Source: Sphingomonas sp. PAMC26645
Lineage (GTDB): Bacteria; Pseudomonadota; Alphaproteobacteria; Sphingomonadales; Sphingomonadaceae
DNA length: 64,000 nucleotides
Direction of reading: 5' to 3'
Assembly (NCBI RefSeq): GCF_004795835.1
Contig: NZ_CP039249.1
Span: 186,001-250,000, forward strand
Shown: positions 33,242 through 60,426 of the stretch, piece after piece
Layout: every line of letters begins with the position of its first letter
Numbering within the stretch: the stretch's first letter is position 1
Position numbers and translations under genes: made by a program
Notes under the pieces: generated by a model
Database searches by the model: none
What the model saw: only the letters and a program-made list of their open reading frames with translations
What the model was told of the DNA's origin: nothing

Positions 33242-33286
33242 TGGTGCCGCTTACAGGACTCGAACCTGTGACCCCCGCATTACGAA
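33242..33286 (-). repeat. Left att site: 3' half of a tRNA-Thr(CGU)
   Basis: On the minus strand this reads anticodon loop TTCGTAA (anticodon CGU), variable region, T arm GGTTCGAGTCC and acceptor AAGCGGC-A-CCA. The 5' half (D arm, acceptor GCCGCTT) is absent to its right. The identical 45 bases recur at 60382. A tRNA 3' half of this kind is the usual footprint of a tyrosine integrase. Confidence 0.85.
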
Positions 33287-33576
33287 GGCTAGTGACGCAC
33301 GGGGAATAACCAAACAATTATAGGTACTTATGGACCTATATCCTGTGCCCCGGCGGCGGCACCCAGCCGCTTCCCAGTTTGGACTGAGACCGCCGATCGG
33401 CCGCTTCCTAGCGAAAGCGCTTTGGCTTGGGAAAAGCCAAAAAATCGACCTGCGCTATACCCGGCTACCAGACGGTAATGCTGGCGGCGCAGCTACGTTG
33501 GCGATCTTCCCGGATGCGAACCGGTAAACGGCGTCGAAGCTCAACAAGCCCCACCAAAACGTCGAACACCTACACG
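33287..33576. other. Region just inside the left island end
   Basis: No gene of convincing coding character is seen. The two overlapping plus-strand frames here (33330-33527 and 33427-33648) lack ribosome sites and coding bias. Confidence 0.4.
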
Positions 33577-33816
33577 TCACCTGCCGATCCCCAGCACCCT
33601 CAGCCGTTCAATCAGCGCATCACACTCGGCTACACTGAGAGTGCTTGAGGCCTCCAAGGGCCCAGCGGTAGCGGATCGCCCCTTGGAGAACCCACGGAAC
33701 CACGCAGTCCGTAGGTTGCCCTCCTGGAAGCTGAAGGGGCATTGCCCTGCGTACGAGTCCGCCCGTCGTCCGTGATCCTCGCCGTCACTCTCCGCCATTA
33801 TCAACGTAATCGTCAT
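33577..33816 (-). CDS. RMF/CrpP-like small protein
   Basis: This 79-residue protein contains ADSYAGQCPFSFQEGNLRTAW then GFSKGR, similar in layout to ribosome modulation factor and CrpP proteins (CPF/Y..., R..W..G...). The ATG follows GGAGG at good spacing. RMF dimerises ribosomes in stationary phase; CrpP is linked to fluoroquinolone tolerance. The role here is unproven. Confidence 0.5.
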   Translation of the reverse strand: MTITLIMAESDGEDHGRRADSYAGQCPFSFQEGNLRTAWFRGFSKGRSATAGPLEASSTLSVAECDALIERLRVLGIGR

Positions 33817-33847
33817 GGTGCGGACCTCCTGCCTCCCAGCCTATGCC

Positions 33848-34093
33848 CTAACCGCGCGGGATGTTGTCAATCAATGCCGTCAAAGCGCCGTCTTGGAAGG
33901 TGTGCGGGCGGATAAGCCGATCGGGCAGCGACAGGCGCAGACCGCGACGATCAAGCTGCTTCATCGCCTGAACCTTCTTGGCGAGCGCCAGCAACGTACC
34001 TTCGAATAATATTTCGGATGACTGATCGTCCGATTGACCGGCGGCGGCCATACGCACCAGCGTAGCGTTCTCTTTCCAGGGAAAGTTCATCAT
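33848..34093 (-). CDS. Hypothetical protein
   Basis: This 81-residue protein begins at one of two tandem ATGs behind AAGGAC. It is mostly helical and contains no motif I recognise. It lies between the RMF-like gene and the Crp/Fnr regulator on the same strand. Confidence 0.55.
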   Translation of the reverse strand: MMNFPWKENATLVRMAAAGQSDDQSSEILFEGTLLALAKKVQAMKQLDRRGLRLSLPDRLIRPHTFQDGALTALIDNIPRG

Positions 34094-34169
34094 TTGAGTC
34101 CTTTAACCGGCAGCGCTGCATCGAGATGAAACCAAGAGCATCATCATTTGGATAGATCGCGGCGGGCGG

Positions 34170-34910
34170 TTATTTCAGGTGAAGGTAACGCGGATTGAAA
34201 CCGGCCTCTTGTTTCAGCGCTTCGATATCCTGGATGACGATCTTCCGGTTTGAAAACGTCATGAGCCCGCGCTCCCGAAGGCGTCGAACAACTCGGTTGA
34301 TGTGAACCGGGCTGAGACCAAGGGCATCGCCGAGATCCTCTTGCGTCAGGGGCATCTCGAAGGTGTTGTTGCCGCCCATGCCAACACTAAGTAACCTGGC
34401 GTGCAGCTCGCATACGAGGTGGGCGACGCGGTCGGAGGCGTCCCTGCGCCCCATGTTGACGAGCCAAGCCCTTAAGACCCCTTCATCGACGAGGCTTGCC
34501 CACCACAATGCCCGCGTGAGACCTGGGCGCTCCACGACTTCGGCCATCAAATCCTTCGATATGAACGCCACCCTCGCTTGGCCCAGCGCACCGATGCTAT
34601 GATCCATCTGGCCGAGCATGATGATGTGCGCATCACAAAAATCGCCTGGGACAAGGAACGCGGTGATCTGTCGCTGACCGTCATCGACAATTGAATAGCG
34701 GCACGCCCATCCGTCTATCACTAGATGGACAAACTCGGGATTGTCGCCGACCCGGATAATATCACGACGGCCATCGAACGTCCGGATGTCAGCCAGCATC
34801 CTGCTCAGCAAATCTCGGTCCTCAGGCGGAAGCGTCGCGTGCTGCTCGAGCTTCATGAGCAGCGGGTGCGCAGGGTTGGCGTCCAGGAGGGCACGTTGCA
34901 ACATCAGCAT
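34170..34910 (-). CDS. Crp/Fnr-family transcriptional regulator
   Basis: This ~246-residue protein has a cyclic-nucleotide-binding-like N-terminal domain and a C-terminal Crp HTH (LTQEDLGDALGLSPVHINRVV), followed by a wing. No FNR-type cysteine cluster is present, so it is not an oxygen sensor by iron-sulfur; a ligand cannot be named. Possible starts are GTG 34928, ATG 34910 and ATG 34904; the last overlaps the upstream stop in TGATG. Many such genes occur in sphingomonad islands. Confidence 0.85.
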   Translation of the reverse strand: MLMLQRALLDANPAHPLLMKLEQHATLPPEDRDLLSRMLADIRTFDGRRDIIRVGDNPEFVHLVIDGWACRYSIVDDGQRQITAFLVPGDFCDAHIIMLGQMDHSIGALGQARVAFISKDLMAEVVERPGLTRALWWASLVDEGVLRAWLVNMGRRDASDRVAHLVCELHARLLSVGMGGNNTFEMPLTQEDLGDALGLSPVHINRVVRRLRERGLMTFSNRKIVIQDIEALKQEAGFNPRYLHLK

Positions 34911-35080
34911 TTCAGGCCGTCTTCGCACCGAGCCTCACGCGCGGACCATGCGCGATCTGCGTAGCGGTCAGCCAATTCGGCATGTGCTACCCGAGCGGTA
35001 TCATCTGCAGCATTTTTCGCAGCGAGCCGTTCTTCAGCCTCGCGCACCAAGCTGTATTCTATGTCATATTTGGGGATCAT
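34904..35080 (-). CDS. Small hypothetical protein upstream of Crp/Fnr regulator
   Basis: A 58-residue, highly charged helical protein (IPKYDIEYSLVREAEERLA..). Its stop overlaps the next gene. Upstream ATGs at 35128 could lengthen it. It resembles the short helical proteins often found in sphingomonad accessory DNA but has no family name I can give. Confidence 0.5.
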   Translation of the reverse strand: MIPKYDIEYSLVREAEERLAAKNAADDTARVAHAELADRYADRAWSAREARCEDGLKC

Positions 35081-35170
35081 GGCAGGCACTCGGCTCTGCA
35101 AGCGAGAGTTATACCCCCCTGTCGTCATCGTGCTCGCGGCATAGTCGATGACAATATTATAAATTAACAC

Positions 35171-35505
35171 AGGTTAGATGAAAGTGCTACTCCGAATAAT
35201 GCAGCGCTTGAACTTGGATAATATCGTAAAGTCGCCATGCGAATAAATATCTAGGCAGCATCCCGATAGAATCTGTCGTAAGCAATTGTAGAGGTTGACA
35301 GATTTCAGGCATCAGGGTTTCCGGCTTGGCGCCAGGCTGCACCTCTAATTAACCTTATCCTCCGGTTTAACGCGTTTGTACCACGAACGCATGGGTCCCC
35401 GCTTCAGCGCTTATACAAAGGGCATTGACCTTAAACCCCAACCGAAAGGATGTATGCCTTTCGCGCGTATAAAGATTTATCCCCTGAGCTTCTGCCGCGC
35501 GTCGT
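35171..35505. other. AT-richer intergenic region
   Basis: No gene is seen. There is a 7-bp inverted repeat CGAAAGG..CCTTTCG (35443-35463) downstream of the globin gene; it lacks a T run and so is a weak terminator candidate. Confidence 0.35.
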
Positions 35506-35925
35506 CTAGTTTTCAGGATACGCTGCGGAGATCATAACGCCCGCAGTTTCGGCGTAGACCAACTCCCAAGCCTCACGGGCTTCACGGGTGAAATCCTCTC
35601 CCAAGAGCTCTGCAAATGTATCGATCAATACCGTTCCGACCGCAGCATATTGGTATGCCTTAACGCCGTACTTGACATGCTTCTTCGCCAGATCCGTCAA
35701 CGTCGGCCTTAGTCGCGTAAGATTCGCAACATTCTCAACCAGAACATCAATAGTTTTTGAGAAAACAAATATCTGATGCGTCATGTCGTCAGGAAAAAGT
35801 GCGCGTGCAAAGGGGTGGTTCAGCAGTAGTCGATAATAAAATATTTCGGAATAAGGATGCGGGGAACTCGATATCTGGGCGTAGCTGCGCGTTACAAGTC
35901 GCATCTGCTCCATCGTCAAAGGCAT
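35506..35925 (-). CDS. Single-domain globin
   Basis: This 139-residue protein has a globin fold pattern with the proximal His (H83) in KKHVKYGVKAYQY, as in bacterial haemoglobins related to flavohaemoglobin N-termini. There is no reductase domain. It could bind O2 or NO. Neighbours are a Crp/Fnr regulator and a diguanylate cyclase. The distal position is near FPDDMTHQ. Confidence 0.85.
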   Translation of the reverse strand: MPLTMEQMRLVTRSYAQISSSPHPYSEIFYYRLLLNHPFARALFPDDMTHQIFVFSKTIDVLVENVANLTRLRPTLTDLAKKHVKYGVKAYQYAAVGTVLIDTFAELLGEDFTREAREAWELVYAETAGVMISAAYPEN

Positions 35926-36003
35926 TTCCCCCTCCCCTTACAGATGGACCTTATGCATACACGACTATTTGTTACTGATGCGTTATCAGGTTAGCCTTTT
36001 GGT

Positions 36004-37803
36004 TCATGAAGCCAAGCGCAATCGGTTTCGGCCTGCACTTTTTGCTTCGTACAGCGCCACGTCGGCACGCTTGAGAATACTATGACTGGTATCCTCGCCG
36101 CCAGTTGAGGCAATGCCAAGGCTGACGGTAACCGTCGGTTGCCCCTCATGCTGAGAGGCTTCAACCTTGGCTCGGACGCGTTCGGCGATCTGCAACGCCG
36201 AGCTCGCGTCGGTTCCGGGTAGGATGATAACGAACTCCTCCCCCCCGTAGCGACCGATAAGGTCAGTGTTTCGCAGCCCTTCAGCGGCGGCCGACGCGAC
36301 CCGTTTGAGAACCTCGTCGCCGATATCATGTCCGTAGCGATCATTGACGAACTTAAAGTGATCAATGTCGAATAAGACGATCGAAGGCTGAGCCTCACCG
36401 GCGGCTGCGCCCCTCAATTTGTCATCGAGATATTCGACAATACGCCGCCGGTTCGCGAGACCGGTCAAGGCATCGGTTGAAGCGAGTAACATCGCAGCCT
36501 CAGCGCTCCGATCGGCTGCGTCGCGAGCATCGCTGAGGACCCGTCGCGCTTCGATTTGCTCTGTAACATCGCGGATCAAACCGAATAGTCCGATCGCATC
36601 CTCTCTCGACGAGTACACTCGCTCACCCTGCGTCTCGACATGCCGAATGGCGCCGTCGGAACGAACCAGCCGGGCTTCGAACGCGAACGGCCGACCATCC
36701 GTAAGGGCGCGTTTTACAGCCTCCGACACACGCCCCCGGTCAGCTGGGTGATACAGATCAATGGCCTGATCCAATGCTGGCGGTTGGCCCTCCGGCAGAC
36801 CATGAATGCGGAATACCTCAGGCGACCAGTAGATCGCCTGATCGGAGGGATTGATACGCCAATGCCCGATGTGCGCGACCGCCTCAGCCTGATCGAGCAG
36901 ACGGACACGTTCCGAAAGATTGATCCTTAAGCGATCGCGGGCGGCAAGAAGCGTTGCCATCGGGAGCGCGGAAACGAACAGCGACAAAAGGTAGAACTGA
37001 AAAAACAGAATACGCGATTCATGGGACGCACGGATCAGGAAGATAGGTCCCGAGCCCAACCAAAGCGCCAGCGATCCGAGCATCACAACGACGATAATGC
37101 TGATGACCCCGCCGAGCATGCCGCCGCGCAGGACTGCGATCACGATGACCATCATCGGCACGAACAGCATCGGATATTGGCTTTGATAGAACGTCGTACC
37201 GGTCGCGACGACCGTCAACACAACGATTCCTGCCAAGTTCAGAGTTTCACGGCCGGACACCGCCCGTTTCGCAGAGACAGCTATTTCGAATATCGCAAAC
37301 AATAGCGGCGTCACGAGCAACATGCCCAGCCATACCGTGCTAAGCCAAGCGAGCATGAATTCCCGGCCTGGCTGGGGAGAAATACAGGCCGCCAGCCCTG
37401 CACTTACCGATGCGGCGATCAACGTCGCGATAAAGAATGTGGACAAGCCTGATGGATCGATAAAAGATATCCGCCGCCCACCTCGCCGCCTCAGCATCAC
37501 CGTCGCAACCAATGCCTCGATCCCGTTGGCAGCGGTAAACCCCGCAGCGACGCGGAATCCGGATCCTTCAAGAAGGTTCGCCGCCAAACTTGCAACGATC
37601 GCAGCCATCGCGAACCGCCAGACGGCACGCCGGGGCACGATGAGCAGCGTTGCCAATAGAATGCCGCTAGGCGGCCAGATTGCGGCTATTCCATGAGCCC
37701 CCCGCGCTACGACCAGCGACAACACGGCCAATGCAAAATAAGCGATGCCTAGCAGCGCCGGACCGAGCGGCGAATAGCCCAACCGTGCAAACATTTGGCG
37801 CAT
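36004..37803 (-). CDS. MASE1-PAS-GGDEF diguanylate cyclase
   Basis: This ~600-residue protein has about eight transmembrane helices of MASE1 type (1-~300), a PAS domain (AHIGHWRINPSDQAIYWSPEVFRIHG region) and a GGDEF domain with RYGGEEFVIILPG and FDIDHFKFVNDRYGHDIGD. It should make cyclic di-GMP, the ligand of the PilZ proteins in this window. Start is ATG 37803 or GTG 37836; neither has a strong ribosome site. Confidence 0.9.
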   Translation of the reverse strand: MRQMFARLGYSPLGPALLGIAYFALAVLSLVVARGAHGIAAIWPPSGILLATLLIVPRRAVWRFAMAAIVASLAANLLEGSGFRVAAGFTAANGIEALVATVMLRRRGGRRISFIDPSGLSTFFIATLIAASVSAGLAACISPQPGREFMLAWLSTVWLGMLLVTPLLFAIFEIAVSAKRAVSGRETLNLAGIVVLTVVATGTTFYQSQYPMLFVPMMVIVIAVLRGGMLGGVISIIVVVMLGSLALWLGSGPIFLIRASHESRILFFQFYLLSLFVSALPMATLLAARDRLRINLSERVRLLDQAEAVAHIGHWRINPSDQAIYWSPEVFRIHGLPEGQPPALDQAIDLYHPADRGRVSEAVKRALTDGRPFAFEARLVRSDGAIRHVETQGERVYSSREDAIGLFGLIRDVTEQIEARRVLSDARDAADRSAEAAMLLASTDALTGLANRRRIVEYLDDKLRGAAAGEAQPSIVLFDIDHFKFVNDRYGHDIGDEVLKRVASAAAEGLRNTDLIGRYGGEEFVIILPGTDASSALQIAERVRAKVEASQHEGQPTVTVSLGIASTGGEDTSHSILKRADVALYEAKSAGRNRLRLAS

Positions 37804-37853
37804 GGTAATTACGTAGCCGAAAATCCTTAACGGCACTGCTTACCAATTTAAGT

Positions 37854-38063
37854 TTATGGTTGGATCGTGGTGAAAAGCGGCAAACGTAGCTGCCCCACCT
37901 CAATACCAATCGGCCTGTAGAGGGCGCTGTAGACGTGCCGGACAACCTCCCGTCGTGCGTCAGCTCTCAATCGCTCCTGCGGCACGGTAAGCCCCACAAG
38001 GGCCCAGCCCGGAGCCTGCTTGATCAGGTCTGCGATCCGTTCAGCGGTGATCAAGCTCGCCAT
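37854..38063 (-). CDS. Small protein B1 (island repeat family)
   Basis: This 69-residue protein (SLITAERIADLIKQAPGWAL..) is a member of a short sphingomonad family I recall as DUF6771 but have not checked. Related copies occur at 51165-51356 (intact) and 40672-40860 (decayed). Its start overlaps the A1 stop, so A and B form a unit. Function unknown. Confidence 0.65.
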   Translation of the reverse strand: MASLITAERIADLIKQAPGWALVGLTVPQERLRADARREVVRHVYSALYRPIGIEVGQLRLPLFTTIQP

Positions 38064-38525
38064 GAACCAAACGTCATAGCATGGGGTGAAAGGCCACGAC
38101 GTGCGAACTCCGCCTCGATTGGCGCCAACAGGCTTTCGGGGCCGTCCTCCATGCACTGGAAGTAGACCGTCTGCATCTCCGCAGGCCGTAGTTCGGGCAA
38201 GATTTCCGCGATCAGATGGTGCGTCTGAGACAGCGGTTCAGCGCCATGGCGCACCGCGTCGGGTGCATGTTCCATGAGAACAAGGTGGAACGCAGCGGCG
38301 GCCGTGTCAATGTTCGGCCTAGCCCTCCAGGCCGGACCTGCGCCATCAACTCTTGTGTGTGCGCCAAGGGTAAAGGGGAGGCCCGAAAACCTCCCCAGCC
38401 CATTACTGCCTTTCCGCACGATTATGATGCGGAACAGAGCCAATGCGGTTCACGCGGTAAACGCGCAAGACAGTCTTTTCGGACAACGCTGGGCGTGCGC
38501 CTGTCATCGGAGTTGGCCCTGACCA
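37880..38525. repeat. A/B unit, copy 1
   Basis: This 650-bp stretch is clearly homologous to 51190-51806 over most of its length, including the promoter side (ACAACGCTGG.CRTGCGCCTGTCAT). It holds genes A1 and B1. It is an old duplication within the island. Confidence 0.7.
38051..38443 (-). CDS. Protein A1 (island repeat family)
   Basis: This frame of up to 130 residues ends in SQTHHLIAEILPELRPAEM.. then MEDGPESLLAPIEAEF. The C-terminal ~75 residues match copy 2. The TTG at 38443 or the ATG at 38275 may start it; the N-terminal part is less certain. Its stop overlaps the B1 start. Function unknown. Confidence 0.5.
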   Translation of the reverse strand: MALFRIIIVRKGSNGLGRFSGLPFTLGAHTRVDGAGPAWRARPNIDTAAAAFHLVLMEHAPDAVRHGAEPLSQTHHLIAEILPELRPAEMQTVYFQCMEDGPESLLAPIEAEFARRGLSPHAMTFGSWRA

Positions 38526-38740
38526 CTATGCATTAAACAGGCAATGCGTCGTGAAGGTCCACCGTTGATTAGCAGATTGTAAATATATGGGTCAAAACAG
38601 AAGCTGCTGCTTCGGTGCAAATGCGCGACACAGGTCTTATTCGAAGCGTCCGAACCCATTCAGGATCAACCACGTTGATCTGTGACAATACCCCGGCACC
38701 ATGAACGGGCAGTTGCGTTAACAGTGGATAGGAGATCGCG

Positions 38741-39019
38741 GTGCCCCGTTTTTACTTCCATACCGAGACCGACATACGGACCACCGACGACGAGGGGATA
38801 GAGTTTCCCGGTTATGCGGAAGCCCGTCGAGAGGCGATCCGTACCTGCGGCCAGATGATGCAAGACGCCCCTGAAGTGTTCTGGGGTTCTCGCCCCTGGA
38901 ACGTGTCTGTAACCAACGCAGAGGGCCTGATCTTGTGGGAAATTTACGTCGATGGTCAGACGTCCGCCGCCGCTATGTCGCTTGACCGCGATCGTGACCG
39001 GCGAGACCCGGACGCGTGA
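38741..39019 (+). CDS. DUF6894-like small protein
   Basis: This 92-residue protein starts with GTG (PRFYFHTETDIRTTDDEG) and matches the short DUF6894 type: MPR(Y/F)(F/Y)F..., a T.D.EG step and EARREA. The ~297 bases before it (38444-38740) hold only the promoter side of the A/B repeat. Function unknown. Confidence 0.7.
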   Translation: MPRFYFHTETDIRTTDDEGIEFPGYAEARREAIRTCGQMMQDAPEVFWGSRPWNVSVTNAEGLILWEIYVDGQTSAAAMSLDRDRDRRDPDA

Positions 39020-39074
39020 TCAAGCCATAGGCTATCGCGTCAACTCTCGCACGCCGGGGGCGACCGCCCATCCG

Positions 39075-39365
39075 CTATCCCGCGCTACGTTCGCCGATGT
39101 GGTCTGCTCTAATCGCCGCGGTAATATCGGACGGTTTCACATCGGACAGTTGGGTGATTGCTCCGTTGATCCTGTATCGCCGTTCAACGGCACGCTGAAC
39201 GACGCGTTCCTGCTCTTGGTCGCCCAAGCCTTCGCAATTCCCGATAAGACGCTCATAAGCGGCCTTTGATAGCCTCCCCTGGATCACCGTATAACGCGGG
39301 AGGAAGACTCCCGGAACTCCACCGTCGCTGATCATAAAATCGAATTCGCGATCTGCGTTTATCAT
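39075..39365 (-). CDS. Hypothetical protein
   Basis: This 96-residue protein starts at an ATG behind GGAGAAACGA. It has a charged N-terminus and a mixed alpha-beta pattern; no motif is recognised. A GTG at 39377 could lengthen it by four residues. Confidence 0.55.
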   Translation of the reverse strand: MINADREFDFMISDGGVPGVFLPRYTVIQGRLSKAAYERLIGNCEGLGDQEQERVVQRAVERRYRINGAITQLSDVKPSDITAAIRADHIGERSAG

Positions 39366-39540
39366 TCGTTTCTCCACGAGTGACGTATCTAGCGCTTCAC
39401 GGCGATCTACGTTTGGGTCGCGCCCGCGGATGCAGTTGATGGGGACATCGGTTCATCCCTCATTCCTTCAGGATGTAGATACCCAACGTTCGATGTCACG
39501 GCGCCGCTGATTGATCGCGTTTGCACATGTCTGATTACGC

Positions 39541-40575: not shown

Positions 40576-40671
40576 GCGCGCCCTTCCCCTATAAATTATC
40601 GTCATGATCCAGACCGGCCACGAGGACAAGCATCGCCAGAACCTTGCCCAGCGTAGCGCCATGCCCAAAAG

Positions 40672-40860
40672 TTATACTGGCAGAGGAGGCTGCCTTACCT
40701 CGATATCGAGCGACTGATAGATTGCGCTGTAGACTTGTTCGACAACCCCGCCTCTCGGGCGTCTGCCTAATCGCTCCTACGGCCGTGAGCGCCAACAGCG
40801 CCCAGCTGGGATTTTACTCGATCGGATTCGCGATTTGCTCGCTATCAGCCAAGCCATTGC
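40672..40860 (-). pseudogene. Decayed copy B3 of the small protein B family
   Basis: Translated leftward, the stretch gives EQIANPIE, a stop, then WALLALT and, in a second frame, ERLGRR..VVEQVYSAIYQSLDIEV. These match B1 and B2 (ERIADLIEQAPGWALVALT and the ARREV..H..SAL...I.VE region). An internal stop and a frameshift mark it as dead. Confidence 0.65.
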
Positions 40861-40934
40861 AGAGATCGAAAGCAATATTCTGCGGACCTATTCTTATTGG
40901 CGCGAACACGCCTTCCACCGGCGGACTGCCATAC

Positions 40935-41492: not shown

Positions 41493-41511
41493 ATCAGGAG
41501 GGGTTGTTTAA

Positions 41512-52610: not shown

Positions 52611-52979
52611 TTAGGAGGCCAAGCTGTACTGCTTCTCCGCGTCGCGACGCCAGTTAGGCACCTTCGACTTCCCAGCAGTGCTACCGCTCAGCACCGCTCC
52701 GACGTGCCCGCGGCTGAAACCAAAGGTCATCGACGTTGCGATGATGGCGCCCGCAGTGGTGAAACCCGCCCCGATGCATGCCGTGATGACGTTCACCAAC
52801 CGTTCGTTGGAGTTCGCGTCGGCGCAGTCTTCGAGCATTTCCTCAACCCCCAGCGTGAAGTTGGCAAAGTCTTCATCCGACATCCGCTTGGAGATGATGG
52901 GCGTGGCTGGGATCGGCCTAACCGCGATGTCCGGGATGGTGATATTCCAGGGGGAGGTAGCCTTGTTCGTGTCAATCAT
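52611..52979 (-). CDS. Hypothetical protein, paralogue of 52048-52365
   Basis: This 122-residue protein has the sequence VITACIGAGFTTAGAIIATS and ends NWRRDAEKQYSLAS. The shared pattern with the gene 245 bases downstream suggests a local duplication. Function unknown. Confidence 0.6.
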   Translation of the reverse strand: MIDTNKATSPWNITIPDIAVRPIPATPIISKRMSDEDFANFTLGVEEMLEDCADANSNERLVNVITACIGAGFTTAGAIIATSMTFGFSRGHVGAVLSGSTAGKSKVPNWRRDAEKQYSLAS

Positions 52980-53093
52980 CTTACTCGCCTTCAAATATGA
53001 TTATTGGCGACCCAACGGGAAACCAAAAAAAGATCAGGAGGATGCCCGACCCACCCACCAGCAGCGCGCTAGCGAATGGATCGGGATGGGGGT

Positions 53094-54263
53094 CTAGACC
53101 GCAGGGTTCCAATCGATCTTCTGCTTCGCCGCGCCCGCTTCGACCGCAGCAAGGAGAGTGTCGTTGGCTAGGTGAGAATACCGCTGGGTTGACTGGTACG
53201 AGGCATGACCGAGCACCTTCCCAACAGCGAACAGGTCGACGCCGCTATTGATCATGAACGACGCCGCTGAATGTCGCAGATCATGTATCCGCAGGTCGTG
53301 CAGACCCGCATCATCCCTAGCCTTCTGCCAAGCGTGCTTGATCGTCGTGAAAGGCTTGAGCGTAACGGGGTTGGGCAAAAGATACTGACACCGGCCGACC
53401 CGAGGCAACTGCTCAATAATGCCGATCGCCGCCTGGGAAAGCGGCACGTGACGGGACTTTCCAGTTTTGGAAGTCGGGATGAGCCACGCGCGGCGTTCAA
53501 GATCAACGTGCTGCCATTCGGCATTAAGCAGTTCAGAGACCCGCGCGCCGGTCAGCAACAGCAAGCCGACAATAGCAGGCAGCAGCGTGTTGCGCGACGC
53601 CGCCACCGCCTTCTGCAGCCGCCGCGCCTCTTCGACACTTAGAAAACGTTCCCGAGCGTTGTTGATGGCCGGACGACGAATACCAACGACTGGATTACGG
53701 GTGACACCAGGCGTGCCCCAGGTCAGGGCTAGAGAGAACGAACGTCCGAACGTCACCCGAATCTTCTCAACGGTTGCGGGCGCAAGCCCCTCCCCCGCTT
53801 TCAGCGCCAGCCATTGTGCGACGTCCTGCTGCCGAATCTCCGTCAGCCGAACCTTCCCCCAGCGCGGCAGAATGTGCCTGCGGACATACATTTCCGTTGT
53901 ATCGTAGCTCCGCTGATAGGTTTTGGCATGCGCGAGGTGCATAACGGCCAGCTCCGCGTAGGTCGGGACAGCTTTGACGTCCTCCTTCACGGCCGCCGGA
54001 TCTCCGCCTAAAGTAATCTCTGATCGCAACCGTTTCGCCTCTTTGCGGGCTTGATCGAAGGTAATGTCTCCGAACACACCAATCTTGTGCTGGCGCTGGC
54101 GATCATGTTTGTCGTTGTATCGCATGTAATAGGTCTTACCCCCGGAGGATCTTACCTCCAGGACGAAACCGGTCGTTATCGTATCGTAGAATGTTTCCTT
54201 AGATTTGCCTTCTGGGCAGAAGGCGGTGAGGCAGAATGTATTATCAAGCTTTGCCTTGGGCAT
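53094..54263 (-). CDS. P4-type tyrosine integrase
   Basis: This 389-residue protein has an N-terminal arm-binding DUF4102-like domain (residues ~1-90), a core-binding domain and a C-terminal catalytic domain with TGARVSELLN (Arg), HDLRHSAASF (HxxR) and LGHASYQSTQRYSHL (Tyr). It should excise and integrate the element using the tRNA-Thr 45-bp site. The start at 54263 is behind AAGGA. It stands 6 kb from the right att, next to vapE. Confidence 0.92.
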   Translation of the reverse strand: MPKAKLDNTFCLTAFCPEGKSKETFYDTITTGFVLEVRSSGGKTYYMRYNDKHDRQRQHKIGVFGDITFDQARKEAKRLRSEITLGGDPAAVKEDVKAVPTYAELAVMHLAHAKTYQRSYDTTEMYVRRHILPRWGKVRLTEIRQQDVAQWLALKAGEGLAPATVEKIRVTFGRSFSLALTWGTPGVTRNPVVGIRRPAINNARERFLSVEEARRLQKAVAASRNTLLPAIVGLLLLTGARVSELLNAEWQHVDLERRAWLIPTSKTGKSRHVPLSQAAIGIIEQLPRVGRCQYLLPNPVTLKPFTTIKHAWQKARDDAGLHDLRIHDLRHSAASFMINSGVDLFAVGKVLGHASYQSTQRYSHLANDTLLAAVEAGAAKQKIDWNPAV

Positions 54264-54517
54264 GATTTGGTTTCCTTATTTGTGTGCGTAAACCGCGATC
54301 GGCTTAGAGCTCCCGTGGGATGGAGAAGCGATGCGGCAGGCAGTGGTGCCCGTTCGAACAAAACGTCGCTGAGTGGGCCTGCCTGGATGCCTATTGGGTA
54401 CATCCAATTGGCAGGGCCACGAGCGAGCCTGCCTTCCGAGCGCCAGCAGCAGTGGGGGCAGGGGGAGGGAAACGGACGGAGTAGCCACCCCCCCGTCCGA
54501 AGGTGCCGGCCGCTACG

Positions 54518-55957
54518 CTAGAACGCGTCTCCAACGGGAGGCTGCTTTGGCCCCATGCGCGGCTTCAGCAACGGTTCGGCACGCTTTAACGGGACACGCC
54601 ACTTGTCTCCGCCGTGGACCCGCTTTGGTTCGCCGCAAATCTCTCGCAGCACCGTGCCGCAATCCTTACTCTGCGGGTTGGTAGGTACAGCGATTCCAAG
54701 CCGCCTCAGAAGTTCGCTAGCGGACATATATTCATTCCCAGCATCTCCGGCCAAGGATGTGTCTAGGGCGTCCAAAACAATGTCACGTATAGAATTAATC
54801 GATCTGTAGTTGAGATTGCTAGTAGTCAGCAAAGCTTCCTCGCCTTCAGACAACCACCATTCGCCCCCGTCATTATATCTAACGGCAAGCTGCGCGTAAA
54901 CTTGCTGCATATCTATTGTATGGTTATAATCTAGGCTGGTGACAGGAATGGTCCAAAACCGGCTATTTCCAGTTTCATCCACCAAGAAGTTTTTCTGGTT
55001 GACCGTTGCAAAGCAAACCGTGCGCCGTCCATACTCTGACTCCGCCTTCGCGTACGGCCTCCTGATCTTGTCAGAGTTTCCGGTAATAAAGCTTTTCAGA
55101 CGAGCAACATCCCGACGGAAAGAGCTATCGAGTTCGCCAATTTCGACGATCCAGTGCGTGATAGCCGCCAAGACAGAGTCTTTGTTACCCGCATCGAGAT
55201 GATGTCCCAGCTTCACGAATTGATCTCGCAAGCCGGGATCTGATACGAGCTTCATCCCCCAGGTAGTTTTACCTATACCCTGGCCGCCTTGTAACGTCAG
55301 GACGCCACGCGCATAAAACCCATGCTTGCTGAGCGCGGCTGCTACAAGGCTGAGCATCCACTTCTCGATCAGGGTATTCTTCAGATCTACTGAAAAGTCG
55401 TCTTGGGCCACGACCGTACCGCAGAAATCAGTAAGACGGTCGCATCCGTCCCACGGGACTGACATAATCCAATCCTTAACCGGATTGTAAGCGTTCCGGT
55501 CACCAATGGCTTCAACATAAGAAGATATTTGGCCAACTGATAAGCCGTGCAGCGAAGCCAGGCTTATTATTGCTGTTAGCGTCGCATTATCGCGATTATC
55601 TGCTGTCCCTTCAAGATTTGGTACAAGAATCTCTACTCTCTTTTTTATCTCATTGTACCTTACAGTAACATCGAACGCTCTAAGTATGTGTTCCAGATTT
55701 TCTATGGTTGTCGGCAGATGGCTCGATGTTCCAACGGGACAGTCGGGAAAGTCACTCGCTTCCAAGCGGCGATTGATCTTCGATACCCTGCCGGTGACCT
55801 GCCGTCCGATTGCGAGCGCCTGCGATGCCTCGGTCGTAGCGTTTTGATCCTCAGTCACTTGGATCGGTACGGTTCCAGTATCACTGACATCAATAATTAT
55901 GTCCGCAGGGCATACACGTTGGGACATAGTTGGGGTTCTAGCTTGAACGCTATCCAT
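54518..55957 (-). CDS. VapE-like P-loop ATPase
   Basis: This ~479-residue protein has the virulence-associated protein E domain: RNAYNPVKDWIMSVPWDGCDRL, a P-loop LQGGQGIGKTTW and the SDKIRRPYAKAESEYGRRTVCFATVN step. No primase domain precedes it. VapE/D5-like proteins replicate plasmid-, satellite- or phage-type elements. The start is ATG 55957 (GAGAG site), with a TTG at 56005 as an alternative. Confidence 0.85.
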   Translation of the reverse strand: MDSVQARTPTMSQRVCPADIIIDVSDTGTVPIQVTEDQNATTEASQALAIGRQVTGRVSKINRRLEASDFPDCPVGTSSHLPTTIENLEHILRAFDVTVRYNEIKKRVEILVPNLEGTADNRDNATLTAIISLASLHGLSVGQISSYVEAIGDRNAYNPVKDWIMSVPWDGCDRLTDFCGTVVAQDDFSVDLKNTLIEKWMLSLVAAALSKHGFYARGVLTLQGGQGIGKTTWGMKLVSDPGLRDQFVKLGHHLDAGNKDSVLAAITHWIVEIGELDSSFRRDVARLKSFITGNSDKIRRPYAKAESEYGRRTVCFATVNQKNFLVDETGNSRFWTIPVTSLDYNHTIDMQQVYAQLAVRYNDGGEWWLSEGEEALLTTSNLNYRSINSIRDIVLDALDTSLAGDAGNEYMSASELLRRLGIAVPTNPQSKDCGTVLREICGEPKRVHGGDKWRVPLKRAEPLLKPRMGPKQPPVGDAF

Positions 55958-56005
55958 AAAACTCTCACGGCTTTCGGCTGCGAAACTTGGTCGAGCCGAG
56001 TTCAA

Positions 56006-56449
56006 ATCGGGTAGGGTGAAAGCTACTAGCAGTGCGCGGGTTCACATCCGCCGGAGCGGACGACTGAAGAGGGCGCTTAAAAAGCTAGTAGTGCCGTGGC
56101 GATTAGCCGGTCCTTCAATAGGACAGCGACTAGCCAACGCCGACATAATGCTCAGACGGGTGAAAGGTTCATGCTGTAAGAAATTTAGCTAGTGCGCTGA
56201 GGCTTACCGTTGATGTCACTGTAAGGCACGAGCTGTGAAGGAACCTATCTGGACCGTATGCTACCGCATCACCAACCGCCAAGATCTTAATCTTACCGCC
56301 TCCGGCGCGATCCGCCCTACCGATGACGAGGCGGTTACCGTTATTGGCAAGTGTGGCTGCCGCCGTTGACCGGTAGCGATGTCTCAGTTTTGCCGCCCCC
56401 TCCCCCCACCGAGCCCATTTGCTGCGAGAGACCTGATGATGTCGGCGAC
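56006..56449. other. Intergenic region with GC-rich direct repeat
   Basis: No gene is seen. A 22-base run (TTGCCGCCCCCTCCCCCCAC then CG) occurs at 56390-56411 and again at 56466-56487, the second inside the next gene's 3' end. It may be a replication-type iteron or chance. Confidence 0.35.
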
Positions 56450-56794
56450 CTAGCCCTGGCTTGGGTTGCCGCCCCCTCCCCCCACCGCCGGTAGTACGGC
56501 AACATTCGTTTGTTGACTGATCTGAACGCGAACTGGCGGGCGCGTGATCACTGACCGGTCGCGCTTCAGCATCATCATGATGAGCGTGAGGCTGCCTATC
56601 CAGATGCACCCTACCGGGTGCGTCTTTAGAAGGCTGGCAAGCATGCCGAAGGCGAGCAGGCCGAACGTCTCAGCCGGACGAAGCAATATCCCAACGATGA
56701 GGCCGATCAAGCCGACGACGAGCAGAACTGATAACGCCGCCTGAAGAACGTTGAGGACGATCCCCGCGAGTAGCAGTATGCCAATGATTTTCAT
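56450..56794 (-). CDS. Small integral membrane protein
   Basis: This 114-residue protein has two to three transmembrane helices (IIGILLLAGIVLNVLQAAL, LIGLIVGILLR, GCIWIGSLTLIMMML) and a glycine-rich C-terminus. Its start overlaps the stop of the upstream gene. Function unknown. Confidence 0.6.
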   Translation of the reverse strand: MKIIGILLLAGIVLNVLQAALSVLLVVGLIGLIVGILLRPAETFGLLAFGMLASLLKTHPVGCIWIGSLTLIMMMLKRDRSVITRPPVRVQISQQTNVAVLPAVGGGGGNPSQG

Positions 56795-57195
56795 GGTTTG
56801 TTCCTTTGATTGACGTGCGCGTTGCACAAAGCGAGGAGATTGGAATCGACCCCTTCGGCATTCTCGATCAGTAGGATGTACGCAAAGCCGGTATCGCCAA
56901 CGGTCACGATCATCTCGAACCAGCCGCCCTCGTCTTGCAGCCAGTCCCAGAAGGGGTGGAAGTCCGTCGATCCGAAATGGGTACCGTCGATGGGGCTGGT
57001 TGTCGGATAAAGCCCGATCTCCCGCATAATGACGGCGGCAGTATCGCCCGGTTGGACCACGACAATATGCGTCAGGGAACCCACCCCGGCGGCTGCGTAA
57101 TGGATAATCCGGGTAGTTAGTAACGCGCGCAGGTGGGGATCGATCGGCAGTGCCAAAACGGCCTGCATTGTTGCTTCATCGTGAAGTGAGAGCAT
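56791..57195 (-). CDS. Hypothetical protein, paralogue of 57277-57684
   Basis: This 134-residue protein starts MLSLHDEATM and has DPHLRALLTTRII, a FHPFWDWLQ step and a GFAYILLIENAEGVDSNLLA end. It shares this frame with the next gene. It lies in an operon with the membrane gene. No function known. Confidence 0.65.
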   Translation of the reverse strand: MLSLHDEATMQAVLALPIDPHLRALLTTRIIHYAAAGVGSLTHIVVVQPGDTAAVIMREIGLYPTTSPIDGTHFGSTDFHPFWDWLQDEGGWFEMIVTVGDTGFAYILLIENAEGVDSNLLALCNAHVNQRNKP

Positions 57196-57276
57196 GGTGG
57201 CTTCCTTCTGGCATAAAAAAAGCACCCCGAAGGATGCTGCGATGCCGCTGGATGCGGCGGGTCTTGGTTGGATCGG

Positions 57277-57684
57277 TCAGGAAGCGTAAGATTTGCAGAG
57301 GTCTAAAAGACGCGGGTCGACGCCCAGCTGGTCAGGCACCAGCAGAATATGTCCAAAGCCATCGTCGGACAGCACGAAGGCCAGTTCGAAGTAGCCAACG
57401 TGATGCTCGATCCATTCCCATGACGGGACGAAATCGGAATGGCCAAACGCAACGCCATCCACGAGGTTGATATCGACGGCGAACCCGAGGGCCGCCTTTA
57501 CCTCTATCATCCCGTCTCCCGCCTCGACGGCGTGGAAGTGGGCAAGGTCGCCGAGTTCGATGTCCGGTTCTGTATCGTCTGCCAGCTGCGATGCTCGGAT
57601 AGCGAGTAGGTTACGGAGGTCGGGATCAAGTGAGGGGTTTCGGATGGCAGTCTCGACGGCGGCGCGTGTAACGAGTGATAGCAT
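57277..57684 (-). CDS. Hypothetical protein, paralogue of 56791-57195
   Basis: This 135-residue protein starts MLSLVTRAAVETAI and has the shared DPDLRNLLAIRAS, FVPSWEWI and GFGHILLVPDQLGVDPRLLDLC pattern. It is the tandem copy of the gene to its left. No function known. Confidence 0.65.
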   Translation of the reverse strand: MLSLVTRAAVETAIRNPSLDPDLRNLLAIRASQLADDTEPDIELGDLAHFHAVEAGDGMIEVKAALGFAVDINLVDGVAFGHSDFVPSWEWIEHHVGYFELAFVLSDDGFGHILLVPDQLGVDPRLLDLCKSYAS

Positions 57685-57941
57685 ATATCGTCTCCTGATT
57701 TAGTTATGAAAAAGGCCCCCGCGAACTGATCGCAGAGGCCCAGGGCAGATTTATAATAGGTGATTAGCTGAATAAGCTTAGTCTTGTGCGTATTCCAACA
57801 TCACGCTGCCGCCATCACTTATATGTGCCCCGTACTCTGCGAAGCCCGTGCCTTGGCTCCATTCCGCACTAGCAATGCATTTAATCTCCTGGCCCGATAT
57901 ATTGTATTTGGTTTGTATGTTCGATATCTCAAATATCTCTG

Positions 57942-58889
57942 GTGTCTCCAAGAGAATTACAAGAAGCTTTCGAGAGCATTCGCGGAGCGCTACCGGTGGA
58001 GAACGCTTCTGTAATGCTACAGCGCCTCCCGAGCTTGGGACGCATTGATCAAGACTCGGCTGATCGGCGATTTATAGATACCTACATTCTCGATGGCCTC
58101 CGTGCTGTAGGAGTCTCGAGAATTGTGGATGCAGACGACTCGACGAAAAGAAAGTTTATAGATGTTAAGTGGTCTAATCCGCTTCACGCACTTGGCCAAG
58201 AGGTTTTAGCAAGAGAGATTGTTACGAGCGTAGGTGGATATATTAACCTTGCATTAAAATCAGCGAAGTCATCAAACAAAGTATTAGCGGCCGATATTAT
58301 TGCATCTTCAGCGCGCTCAAAACAGATCGTCGACTTCGGTGGACTTCACGTCGAGGATGCAGCCATATCGCAACTCGACCTTGAAGGTGCCATAATTAGT
58401 AATGTCATTCTAACGTCCTGCACGATCGAGGAGCTTGTTTTACCAGCTGATGTTCCGATCGGATTAGCGATCAATGACTCGTTGATAACCAAGGTGTCAG
58501 GAGTTTCTTCAACAGCTGGATTACCGAGTTGGCTTTCAGATAACTCAGTGGAAGAGTTTGATTCGGTTCGCACAATGAGTCGAATTAGAGATGCCGGACT
58601 TGGCTCAAGCCATGAGGTACTTGTTGTTGTGCTAAAGAAAACATTCTTTCAGCCCGGGACAGGCAGGAAAGAGGAAGCGCTTCTCAGAGGGTTTGAAGCT
58701 GGAAGGCACAATAAGGTTGCAAGACGCGTTATCTCCGCACTCGTTGCAGAAGATTTCTTGGGGACATTTAAAGGCAAAGAAGGCATCGTTTACACCCCAA
58801 ATCGAGCGATGACGTCACGTGCAAAGAGAATGCTGGACGAACTTAAAGCTAGCCAAGATCCTATGTGGATCAGTGTAGGAACACTTTGA
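57942..58889 (+). CDS. AT-rich ORF, possibly the C-terminal part of a larger defence-type protein
   Basis: This 315-residue protein starts at a GTG, with an in-frame TAA at about 57,880. Its codon use and base content are clearly more AT-rich than its neighbours. A pentapeptide-like beta part (FGGLHVEDAAISQLDLEGA) is followed by a winged-helix-like C-terminus (RKEEALLRGFEAGRH then a short basic helix). This tail resembles the C-terminal region of large NTPase defence proteins; the resemblance is from memory. No NTPase motif is present. Confidence 0.5.
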   Translation: MSPRELQEAFESIRGALPVENASVMLQRLPSLGRIDQDSADRRFIDTYILDGLRAVGVSRIVDADDSTKRKFIDVKWSNPLHALGQEVLAREIVTSVGGYINLALKSAKSSNKVLAADIIASSARSKQIVDFGGLHVEDAAISQLDLEGAIISNVILTSCTIEELVLPADVPIGLAINDSLITKVSGVSSTAGLPSWLSDNSVEEFDSVRTMSRIRDAGLGSSHEVLVVVLKKTFFQPGTGRKEEALLRGFEAGRHNKVARRVISALVAEDFLGTFKGKEGIVYTPNRAMTSRAKRMLDELKASQDPMWISVGTL

Positions 58890-59014
58890 TCACGTATTCC
58901 GACGTCTCGGCCGATCCGGAATTTTCATTTCCGCGGAACATGGTGCTGGACGACGAATCACTGAATGTCGGCAACAACCAGAAGTCGGATTATATCCGTT
59001 GGCGAATGGAGTAG
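58886..59014 (+). CDS. Possible 42-residue ORF
   Basis: A frame from a TTG overlapping the upstream stop, with normal amino acid content (ITYSDVSADPEFSFPRNMVL..). No homologue recognised. It could be the 3' scrap of another gene. Confidence 0.3.
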   Translation: MITYSDVSADPEFSFPRNMVLDDESLNVGNNQKSDYIRWRME

Positions 59015-59044
59015 GGATGGCAAGGGTCGCCCCACTTCCCTATC

Positions 59045-59153
59045 AAAAGCGCCCCAAGCAAGGCTCAAGCAACAGCCCCGCCGGACGGTCTTTCAGCTTT
59101 AGCTGCCGCCGTTCCCCTTGGAAGCGCCACAAAGAAGGTGGTGCGGCTTGCAG
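59045..59153. repeat. att-flank repeat R1 (decayed)
   Basis: AAAGCGCCCCAAGCAAGGCT .. GCCGCCGTTCCCCTTGG .. AAGGTGGTGCGGCTTGCAG resembles R2 and R3 in the same orientation. It ends in a decayed form of the tRNA-Thr acceptor end (TGGTGCGGCTTGCAG versus TGGTGCCGCTTACAG). Confidence 0.6.
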
Positions 59154-59156
59154 CTT

Positions 59157-59558
59157 TCAATCCCGAACGCGATGCAGCTTTGCAGACGCACTTCCAAGCT
59201 CAACCTCCAGCACATCCGTCCCCGCGTCCAACGCCCTGGCTTGAAAGTCGAACGGCTCGACGTCGCTCGGGTGGTAGGTGAAGCGGTAGCTGTTTGGCCC
59301 ACCGGCCTTCACGACGAACGTCGCCAGCCCCTTGCTGTCGGCTTCTCGCACGATGCTCACCTCCCCGATGACCGGCCCCTCTTCCAGCCTAGTCTCGTTC
59401 TTGTCATCGCTCATGTAGAACAGTCCGGCGGCGTTAGGCCACGTCACCGCAAGCCCTTCAGCGGGCGTACCCTCCGGTAGTTGCGCGACGACACGCAAGG
59501 CGTCGCTCGGGTCACGCGTACCCGTAGCGTCCCAAGCAGGACCTAAACGGCCGCCCAC
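59157..59558 (-). CDS. Hypothetical protein, possibly a fragment
   Basis: This 133-residue frame has a beta-rich pattern (EGLAVTWPNAAGLFYMSDDK, EVSIVREADSKGLATFVVKA). Its N-terminus lies inside repeat R2, so the 5' end may have been replaced. No family recognised. Confidence 0.4.
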   Translation of the reverse strand: MGGRLGPAWDATGTRDPSDALRVVAQLPEGTPAEGLAVTWPNAAGLFYMSDDKNETRLEEGPVIGEVSIVREADSKGLATFVVKAGGPNSYRFTYHPSDVEPFDFQARALDAGTDVLEVELGSASAKLHRVRD

Positions 59559-59623
59559 CGGAAAGACAGTTCAGCCTCAGCCGCCGCTGTTACCTTGTGG
59601 AGATACCCTAAAGTAAGTGGTAC
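59526..59623. repeat. att-flank repeat R2 (decayed)
   Basis: AGCGTCCCAAGCAGGACCTA .. CAGCCTCAGCCGCCGCTGTTACC .. AAAGTAAGTGGTACC matches R3 closely until the tRNA-derived part, then diverges. The next 21 bases nearly match a stretch at 31,878. Confidence 0.6.
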
Positions 59624-59744
59624 CATTACATCGGATATGGATCGAATTTTTCTTAGTAAAATGGCAGCTCAGGACATTACCCTGATTGGAACCACGCTCG
59701 CGTTAATATACCGATCATGATCGGCGGGGCGGTGGGTCTGATAA

Positions 59745-60227
59745 ATGTCGCTACATTCGAAAGAACTCTCCGTGCCATGTCGCCTGAATGTAAGCGGTAA
59801 CTGGTCGAATGGGTGCATTCATGACGTGTCTGACAAGGGCTTGCTCATCTCTTGCACGAGCCCGCCGCCCATCGGCACGTACGTCGACATTCGCCGTGGG
59901 ACACTCGTGATCATCGGCAGAGTAGTTTGGCAGGGTGGAAGTCGCTTTGGCGTGCGGACGCAGGACCCCGTCAGCATAGCCGCCCTCGTGAACGAACCCG
60001 TGCTTAAGAGCCGCCCGGCGACCTCCGACCGGCGTACCCTGAAGCGGAAAGAATCAGGCCGATGCGCGATCCAGCAGGCCGAACGAAATCGGCAGCGCTC
60101 AACGGCGTTCCAATTCGTCTGCATCGTCATCGGCGGCGCAGGAATCGCGTACTACGCGGCAATCTGTTGTTATCAGGCCCTCGCAGTACCCCTCGAAGCG
60201 ATAGCTGACGCGCTTAGCGGCGGGTGA
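59745..60227 (+). CDS. PilZ-domain protein with C-terminal membrane helix, paralogue of 18039-18530
   Basis: This 160-residue protein starts SLHSKELSVPCRLNVSGNW and then matches the 18.0-kb gene over its whole length, including the C-terminal helix. At DNA level the identity looks to be about three quarters, so it is not a recent copy. It lies between repeats R2 and R3, as cargo of one insertion. Confidence 0.8.
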   Translation: MSLHSKELSVPCRLNVSGNWSNGCIHDVSDKGLLISCTSPPPIGTYVDIRRGTLVIIGRVVWQGGSRFGVRTQDPVSIAALVNEPVLKSRPATSDRRTLKRKESGRCAIQQAERNRQRSTAFQFVCIVIGGAGIAYYAAICCYQALAVPLEAIADALSGG

Positions 60228-60286
60228 ACTGAAACCCAACGGCGATGGACCACAGGTATAGCGTGGGTCGAGCCCGTTCTCCTACC

Positions 60287-60381
60287 CAAAGCGCCCCAAA
60301 CAGGACCCAAACGGCTACCCAGCCGAAAGGCCTATCAGCCTCAGCCGCCGCAGTTCCCTTGTGGACGTGCCATAAAGTAGG
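60287..60381. repeat. att-flank repeat R3 (intact)
   Basis: AAGCGCCCCAAACAGGACCC .. CAGCCTCAGCCGCCGCAG .. ATAAAGTAGG leads directly into the tRNA-Thr fragment. It is the template for R1 and R2 and probably the arm-type binding region of the integrase. Confidence 0.65.
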
Positions 60382-60426
60382 TGGTGCCGCTTACAGGACT
60401 CGAACCTGTGACCCCCGCATTACGAA
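60382..60426 (-). repeat. Right att site: 3' half of a tRNA-Thr(CGU)
   Basis: Identical to 33242-33286. To its right stands CGAAACCGATAG, not a tRNA 5' half, so this copy too is only a fragment and marks the start of another element. Confidence 0.85.

Follow-up and report, generated by a model that had tools for sequence, protein, structure and literature searches.

Two different integrative elements probably inserted in tandem at a tRNA-Thr(CGU) gene of Sphingomonas sp. PAMC26645

We analyzed a 64,000-nucleotide stretch of the genome of Sphingomonas sp. PAMC26645 (the window) together with stretches to its right. Very probably, two different site-specific integrative elements lie here in tandem, both inserted at the 3' end of a single tRNA-Thr(CGU) gene. 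It has the features of a tandem island array: one intact tRNA at one end, tRNA 3' fragments in the same orientation, elements with their own integrases and an empty site in relatives. Element 1 is an integrative element whose core (an integrase, a VapE-type primase/helicase and the p65/p66 proteins) is interior, with cargo to either side and a conserved attP arm at each end. Element 2 is, judging from its predicted proteins, a contractile-tailed prophage. One tRNA gene is the landing site across a genus for at least two distantly related integrase families. The features of the locus are collected in Table 1; genes in the elements were called by a custom script.

Table 1. Features of the locus (positions in the window)
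Feature	Position	Strand	Remark
Left-flank chromosomal gene	31930..32937	+	flank syntenic with the empty site in relatives
att copy A	33242..33286	-	distal end of element 1; 45-bp tRNA-Thr(CGU) 3' half running from the anticodon loop to CCA
Element 1	33242..60381		27,140 bp, GC 0.564; between copies A and B, absent from empty sites
Left-end arm, element 1	33287..33471	+	127-175 bp match five family-1 elements at 82-85%; other elements match less well
Left CCCA-N7-CCCA pair	33362..33376	+	76 nt inside core; proposed integrase arm site
Crp/FNR-like regulator, cargo	34170..34910	-	PF13545, PF00027
Globin, cargo	35506..35925	-	PF00042
MASE1-PAS-GGDEF protein, cargo	36004..37836	-	domain matches
Direct duplication, copy 1	37876..38524	-	~650 bp; DUF6771 ORF and small partner ORF
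Type I restriction subunit HsdR, cargo	45982..48510	+	PF04851, HSDR_N; PADLOC REase_I
HsdM-HsdS fusion, cargo	48392..50332	+	N6_Mtase, Methylase_S; PADLOC MTase_I from model position 233
Direct duplication, copy 2	51169..51804	-	82-84% by piece
Small core protein adjoining integrase	52611..52979	-	cluster in 12/20 family-1 elements, own included
Element-1 tyrosine integrase	53094..54263	-	PF00589, PF13356; 19.8 kb from left end, 6.1 kb from right
VapE-like primase/helicase, replication	54518..56005	-	PF05272; PHROG DNA helicase/primase
Small core protein p64	56450..56794	-	cluster in 8/20 elements, own included
Core protein p65, p66 paralogue	56791..57195	-	p65/p66 cluster in 18/20 elements
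Core protein p66	57277..57684	-	p65/p66 cluster in 18/20 elements
Putative fossil right end 1	59014..59138	+	nhmmer E 6e-15, arms-only profile; second CCCA mutated, then degenerate core start
Putative fossil right end 2	59519..59615	+	nhmmer E 2.5e-15, arms-only profile; CCCA motif lost, degenerate core start
Live right-end arm, element 1	60252..60381	+	similarity to family-1 right arms
Right CCCA-N7-CCCA pair	60295..60309	+	87 nt before core B
att copy B	60382..60426	-	internal junction, elements 1 and 2
Element 2, part inside window	60427..64000		35.2 kb from 60,382; ends G000:281622
Left end of element 2, CGAAACC...	60427..60626	+	prophage-type inner end
Element 2 portal gene	63286..64000, continues beyond window	-	PHROG 68, E 2.5e-133

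A whole-genome search with up to three mismatches recovered three copies of the 45-bp tRNA 3' half in one orientation, all matched on the + strand (A at G000:C1:219242, B at 246382, C at 281623). A reversed control pattern had no match in the same search. Three exact 45-mers are not a product of chance, and an assembly artefact is unlikely because the flanks align with empty sites in two relatives. An earlier reading of the window from its letters alone (the sequence-only reading) had described copies A and B as identical halves in the same orientation, as the search confirms; ARAGORN calls no tRNA gene in the window. The intact tRNA-Thr that this reading placed beyond position 64,000 was found at copy C, 31.6 kb to the right of the window, the only copy completed to a whole tRNA. 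Across the window and the stretches to its right, ARAGORN calls an intact tRNA-Thr(cgt) solely there (76 nt, minus strand, L003:1501-1576), and its 5' end, read from the sequence, is GCCGCTTTAGCTC, the acceptor foreseen. The contrary arrangement, an intact tRNA elsewhere with no third copy at the right, does not occur: the third copy lies to the right, and there is no fourth within three mismatches.

The same site in relatives is empty in two genomes (G166 and G216, by flank alignment), holds the prophage type without element 1 in two (G131 and G037) and the element-1 type without the prophage in one (G279), and carries both stacked in one. Left-flank alignments at 90-91% reach within 7 bp of the core in these five named genomes; in G159 the figure is 89%. 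Where the flanks meet in G166 and G216 the segment from 33 to 60 kb is absent, which argues against its being syntenic core DNA, and the separate occurrence of each type at the site bears out the proposal that copy B is a junction of two elements. It is very improbable that the DNA between 33 and 95 kb is a single composite island or provirus in which copy B arose by internal duplication. IMG/VR does contain one 54.6-kb viral contig (unaligned) with an identical element-1 integrase; its length exceeds that of the prophage alone, which suggests that the predictor merged two elements. The composite's parts, however, occur alone at the same flank in G131, G037 and G279, and elements 1 and 2 each have their own integrase family and their own inner ends. 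As a unit of descent the composite island is refuted, and the analysis separates two elements apparently entered as one provirus in a viral database. With empty, single, double and older states all present, island build-up can be compared directly, step by step.

The family of element 1 (family 1) is present in Sphingomonadales and Brevundimonas, with sizes of 6.5-37 kb, and looks undescribed in the literature searched. Its integrase and replication core is usually mid-element and not next to att. The centrality test was limited to elements with a full core, 17 of the 20; over all 20, which are not independent, the mean core offset is 0.31 (KS p 0.025). The predicted structure of p65 is a confident model with no clear fold match. 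One relative, G187, has a partial second integrase. The 7.5-kb element G025_1 has the core at both ends and keeps the left-end motif, lacks the right-end motif and has no member of the integrase cluster; by sequence it fits the definition of a CIME, with att sites kept and the integrase lost. About half of the large cargo proteins scanned in family 1 are phage-defence-like, the scan covering 20 of the 23 longest of 97 cargo clusters (three long ones were left out). This suggests that family 1 may carry defence systems in sphingomonads.

The ends of family-1 elements share a signature. A CCCA-N7-CCCA pair stands at a near-fixed distance from the core in 21/21 left ends (position 76) and 20/21 right ends, compared with five forward and seven reverse matches per 465,577 bases of element interiors. 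The position of these pairs suggests that they are binding sites of the element-1 integrase. In the genome under study the left-end and right-end patterns each match solely at the respective end of element 1. Of 295 genomes, 39 contain the left-end pattern (no control match), including 26 of the 29 genomes with integrase family 1; the right-end pattern matches in 54 genomes against seven control matches, and some of its matches are away from any att. Among named organisms, the motif is missing at the usual distance in 5 of 23 loci (of 33, those with a core in the available stretch, save one). The family-1 left arm also contains an inverted repeat. In the arm-profile search (nhmmer), we discounted 17 minus-strand matches. 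Fifteen came from the left-arm profile (E 5e-6 to 0.08), 12 of them in an element's own left arm and three in a right arm; the other two came from the right-arm profile (E 0.05 and 0.08). Three weak matches of the prophage-arm profiles (E 0.05-0.1) were dropped. With sequence as the sole input, the signature locates family-1 ends and tells most live ends from dead ones.

The state of element 1 itself bears on whether it is an ordinary island in decay that is no longer mobile, a reading that we find doubtful. The HsdM part of its fusion protein is without the N-terminal ~230 residues (PADLOC), which breaks the restriction system, and no relaxase, transfer or packaging gene was found in 20 element-1 proteins (Pfam) or in 20 large cargo proteins of relatives. 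Against decay, the integrase and VapE reading frames are open, both cores are exact, and both arms retain the CCCA pair that most dead ends have lost. Element 1 may still be mobile.

Besides the live right end, two decayed ones lie just inside copy B, within 1.4 kb of the live one. Similar fossils in G129, G163 and G039 lie within 4.4 kb of the live right end. The CCCA pair is lost in 8 of 9 fossils; the fossil in G130 keeps it. Eight of 10 continue into at least six of the first seven core bases within 21 nt, against 2.7% of random places; a partial G129 match (E 0.0054) is in this count of 10 and outside the motif count of nine. The two fossils inside copy B likely record earlier tandem insertions. 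Their nearness to the live right end would also fit local duplications of the right arm that never were att junctions. We consider this origin quite unlikely, since the profile comprised arms only and yet the core start follows, and since right ends also occur beyond the distal att: one in G108, and in G163 a prophage right end with its integrase. The fossils, the mid-element integrase and the identities of the elements go beyond what the sequence-only reading had covered.

These observations can be joined in a mechanism. The element-1 integrase would bind the CCCA-N7-CCCA pairs in both arms, and the crossover would fall in that end of the 45-bp core which encodes the anticodon loop. With its own copy of the 3' half the arriving element would restore an intact tRNA, and the old half would be left at the far end. 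Five named loci have both a displaced half and the intact tRNA; at two of them, L096 and L139, the T-arm is not the same in the half and in the tRNA, as expected from a crossover on the anticodon side. The site so regenerated could be used repeatedly, which would give stacked elements, and in some of these, later deletion of the left end and most of the body would leave a decayed right end, as in the two cases inside copy B. For family 1 we propose, tentatively and as a possibility rather than a probability, that the mid-element core places attP at the opposite pole of the circle and that the elements grow by stacking and trimming. A newcomer inserting between the resident and the tRNA would later be stripped of its left end and the bulk of its body, and the resident would thereby gain a fresh right end and a scrap of cargo. 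If this is true, stacked dead right ends are a readable record of insertions.

Ten proteins of element 2 compared with PHROGs include terminase, portal, capsid, tail sheath, baseplate, tape measure and integrase. An inner end like that of element 2 (CGAAGCC...) is present at the copy left of a prophage-type element in G163, G159, G131, G037, G160 and G161. The tyrosine integrase (L006:4255-5592) lies 33 bp from copy C; it is below the Pfam cut-off and was found with PHROGs. It belongs to a different family from the element-1 integrase, blastp covering 64 residues at 27%. In all 17 places checked, 24-67 bp separate the prophage integrase from the att on the tRNA side. Three genomes with the integrase at 67% identity or more were left out of this check, among them G014, where a broken prophage integrase gene lies 1.7 kb from att.

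The adjacency of the two elements raises the question of a phage satellite that depends on, and is packaged by, element 2 or its relatives. In its favour, the element-1 proteins scanned (20 with Pfam, six core proteins with PHROGs) include an integrase and a primase/helicase and no capsid protein, and the element-1 type directly adjoins the prophage type in all four mixed tandems (G000, G163, G159 and G254). Co-occurrence, however, is at chance level: both integrases are found in two genomes against about 2.0 expected (29 x 20 / 295), and left ends together with the prophage integrase in three against 2.6. The two elements share only the cores and exact matches of 17-18 bp (E 0.2-0.7), among which no packaging site stands out. 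We therefore consider such a satellite unlikely. A shared packaging site as short as 17-18 bp could escape this comparison.

The association of each integrase with core-copy number also supports two site-specific elements. Among 295 genomes, counted by eye from a table of core copies, 55 have at least two core copies, 12 at least three and nine three on one strand. At least two copies are present in 26 of 29 genomes with integrase family 1 (at least 58% identity) against 29 of 266 others, a single att copy being found in the remaining three of the 29, and in 15 of 20 genomes with the prophage integrase (at least 67%) against 40 of 275 others. Both identity cuts were chosen after the lists were seen, and the compared genomes are related, which makes the p-values of the integrase/att association too small. 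Eight of the 55 multi-copy genomes have neither integrase.

Compared with known systems, element 1 resembles P4-like satellites, as described in PMC8628076, in its tyrosine integrase, primase/helicase and defence cargo. It differs from them in that family 1 spans 6.5-37 kb with an integrase that is usually interior and not terminal. By the psu and sid criterion element 1 is not a P4-like satellite: neither gene has a match in 20 element-1 proteins (Pfam) or six core proteins (PHROGs). Nor do delta and alpA match in the same 20 and six proteins, 13 small gene calls being outside the Pfam scan. PICMI (PMC10803314) likewise have an integrase, a primase and defence cargo, and share with element 1 that no capsid-remodelling gene was found; they sit next to fis and have AlpA, whereas family 1 sits at tRNA-Thr and element 1 is not integrated beside fis.

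Tandem accretion at tRNA genes is already known (Islander, PMC4383910; PMC5704250). The ICE, IME and CIME arrays of PMC5704250, so far as its consulted sections go, are alike in the att sites kept by decayed elements and in the attI junction. They differ in that no relaxase or T4SS gene was found in the family-1 proteins scanned, most cargo being outside the scan, and stacked right ends without cores were not found described in those sections. The tandem islands of Islander (PMC4383910) are alike in that one end has the intact tRNA, the displaced 3' fragments all point the same way and each island has one integrase; that paper also lists an anticodon-centred attP subsite as common. For all tRNA genes of 2168 genomes it gives 125 tandems of at least two and four of at least three. 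Here, by comparison, nine of 295 genomes of one genus have three same-strand core copies at one tRNA, and the putative fossil ends deepen the array further.

The genome of Sphingomonas sp. PAMC26645 (4,283,956 bases, single contig; the window spans its positions 186001-250000) carries two identical copies of the 45-bp 3' half of tRNA-Thr(CGU), the core, in the same orientation within the window, and exactly one further copy was recovered by a whole-genome search. The sequence-only reading had predicted an intact tRNA-Thr with the acceptor GCCGCTT to the right of the window. The third copy lies there; of the three, only this one belongs to a whole tRNA-Thr(cgt) gene, and the gene has the predicted acceptor.

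Using a 675-base probe of the empty site (left flank, core and right flank), we searched 295 genomes of the genus and read the site content in six of them. Among the matches listed in order of score, the probe is unbroken in G166 and G216, where base-by-base reading shows both flanks (90–93%) joining at an intact tRNA. In the four others the left flank is as in PAMC26645, followed by an element of the prophage (element 2) type only (G131, G037), an element of the element 1 type only (G279), or an element 1 type together with an 8.8-kb prophage-type remnant (G159). With empty and singly occupied sites in relatives, the region between 33 and 60 kb is not syntenic core DNA. The presence of each type alone at the site bears out the earlier proposal that the middle copy is a junction: the locus is two elements rather than one. 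In S. parapaucimobilis (L237) this core is overlapped by a gene of a recombinase family, which perhaps marks yet another kind of element at the site.

Positions of features at the tRNA-Thr site and in related elements
Feature	Sequence	Coordinates	Basis
Core copy A	window	33242-33286	
Core copy B	window	60382-60426	
Core copy C	own genome	281623-281667	whole-genome search
Phage_integrase with arm-binding domain, element 1	window	53094-54263	
p65/p66	window	56791-57684	
Duplication of ~650 bp, first copy	window	37876-38524	
Duplication of ~650 bp, second copy	window	51169-51804	
Fossil right end just inside copy B	window	59014-59138	right-arm profile, E 6e-15
Fossil right end just inside copy B	window	59519-59615	right-arm profile, E 2.5e-15
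Recombinase-family gene	L237	12408-14030	
Decayed third element	G163 C12 (oriented stretch)	34076-51641	
Right-end pattern outside the distal core; further core copy with left end	G108 C1	2285379-2285510; 2308989-2309122	

Element 1 (27,140 bp, GC 0.564) encodes an integrase and a VapE-like protein. Element 2 (35,241 bp, GC 0.632), a contractile-tailed prophage, has its integrase 33 bp from copy C, and among ten of its proteins scanned are terminase, portal, major head, tail sheath, baseplate and tape-measure proteins. The two integrases share 27% identity over 64 residues (blastp).

The core, allowing two mismatches, is present in 284 of the 295 genomes; by-eye tallies give at least two copies in 55 and at least three in 12, in nine of which three lie on one strand. 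At least two cores were found in 26 of the 29 genomes with an element 1 integrase of at least 58% identity, versus 29 of the 266 others (Fisher 7e-19, indicative only since the genomes are related), and in 15 of the 20 with a prophage integrase of at least 67% (1.5e-8). More distant integrases showed no link to multiple cores, either for element 1 (39–51%; two of nine genomes) or for the prophage (five of 24). The left end or one of the two integrases is present in 47 of the 55 multi-copy genomes.

The ends of the element 1 family share a CCCA-N7-CCCA pair. In 21/21 left ends it starts 76 nt inward of the distal core, and in 20/21 right ends it starts 75–88 nt ahead of the proximal core. Element interiors (465,577 bases) hold five forward and seven reverse matches, and none occurs in the arms of four prophage-type elements. 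Patterns combining the pair with core letters were run genome-wide alongside control patterns: the left pattern matched in 39/295 genomes (0 control matches), the right in 54/295 (7 control matches), and in PAMC26645 each has a single match, the left pattern at the left end of element 1 and the right pattern at its right end. Left pattern and integrase occur together in 26 genomes, the pattern alone in 13 and the integrase alone in three. The motif also lies 75–78 or 86–89 nt from the core in 18 of 23 core-holding loci of named organisms, including Brevundimonas, Sphingopyxis, Novosphingobium, Erythrobacter and Pontixanthobacter; in the remaining five, two Sphingobium among them, it is elsewhere or absent. 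We infer that the pair is a putative arm site of the element 1 integrase. The right-end pattern occurs without a left end in 21/295 genomes (e.g. G098, G223, G134), several adjoining the tRNA; some are chance matches, others look like relics of lost elements.

Five loci of named organisms show both a displaced half and the intact tRNA. In two of them (L096, L139) the T-arm sequence of the displaced half is not that of the intact gene. Such differences would be expected if the crossover took place at the anticodon-loop end, with the incoming element supplying its own 3' half. The identical copies in the window are uninformative on the crossover side.

Of 25 att-bounded elements read from 20 genomes, 20 (from 19 genomes) have the element 1 integrase. 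These span 6.5–37 kb; 18 carry the p65/p66 pair family and 18 a replication gene, nine of VapE type and nine of a second type, whose single scanned member is Prim-Pol/PriCT_2/AAA_25. The two replication types never co-occur in one of the 20 elements, and they differ between PAMC26645 and G163 despite 93% identical integrases. Only one of the 20 has its integrase no more than 1 kb from an element end; in contrast, the prophage integrase is 24–67 bp from att in all 17 places checked, a set excluding G014, where a broken copy lies 1.7 kb off att. In 17 elements with a complete core gene block this block is nearer the middle than random (mean offset 0.27 versus 0.5; simulated p 0.0003, taking no account of kinship among elements), with element 1 itself off-centre (0.81). 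The paralogous p65/p66 pair gave a confident AlphaFold model (mean pLDDT 93.4) with no clear fold match; it has 410 relatives at E 0.001, and none of the 120 listed has a Pfam domain. A 7.5-kb element in G025 has both cores and the left-end motif, lacks an integrase and adjoins a complete family member; it is possibly a cis-mobilizable element.

In the mixed tandems of PAMC26645, G163, G159 and G254 (the last assigned from junction sequences), it is the prophage type that adjoins the tRNA, with the element 1 type on the far side. If elements enter at the intact tRNA, the prophage would be the more recent arrival. The opposite order is also seen: outside its element 1 type, G163 carries the decayed remains of another prophage-type element, the third there, which resembles element 2 at 91–94% over integrase and right end; between the two integrases the identity is 94%.

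A right-arm profile without core letters detected two additional right ends just inside copy B, further ones in G129, G163, G039 and G130, and an extra right end outside the distal att of G108. Eight of ten such fossils reach at least six of the first seven core bases within 21 nt, versus 2.7% of random places. The CCCA pair is lost in eight of nine and retained in G130; no internal left-end fossils were found on the forward strand. We read the fossils as remains of earlier tandem insertions with their left parts deleted. G108 holds a more complex stack: a right-end pattern directly borders the distal core on its outside, and 23.6 kb on there is another copy of the core, inverted and with a left end.

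The cargo of element 1 includes genes for a globin, a GGDEF protein and a Crp-like regulator. There is also a type I restriction set, whose HsdM is missing its first ~230 residues. Most large cargo clusters in relatives are confined to one element. From the 23 longest of the 97 cargo clusters there, 20 large proteins were scanned. PADLOC matches at 1e-10 were obtained for 11 of these, including HmaABC, GmrSD and methylases; several of the 11 are weak helicase, ATPase or nuclease matches. No relaxase, transfer or packaging protein was found among 40 proteins scanned from element 1 and the relatives' large cargo. Element 1 also contains a direct duplication (82–84% by piece, 13.3 kb apart); its DUF6771 ORF and partner ORF have relatives in the left part of the prophage-type elements of G131, G163 and G159.

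We found no report of the element 1 family or of a Sphingomonas tRNA-Thr element in the literature covered, which excludes most subscription journals. A 54.6-kb IMG/VR contig carries an identical element 1 integrase. Published accounts (PMC4383910, PMC5704250) already describe islands in tandem at tRNA genes as well as accretion involving distantly related integrases.
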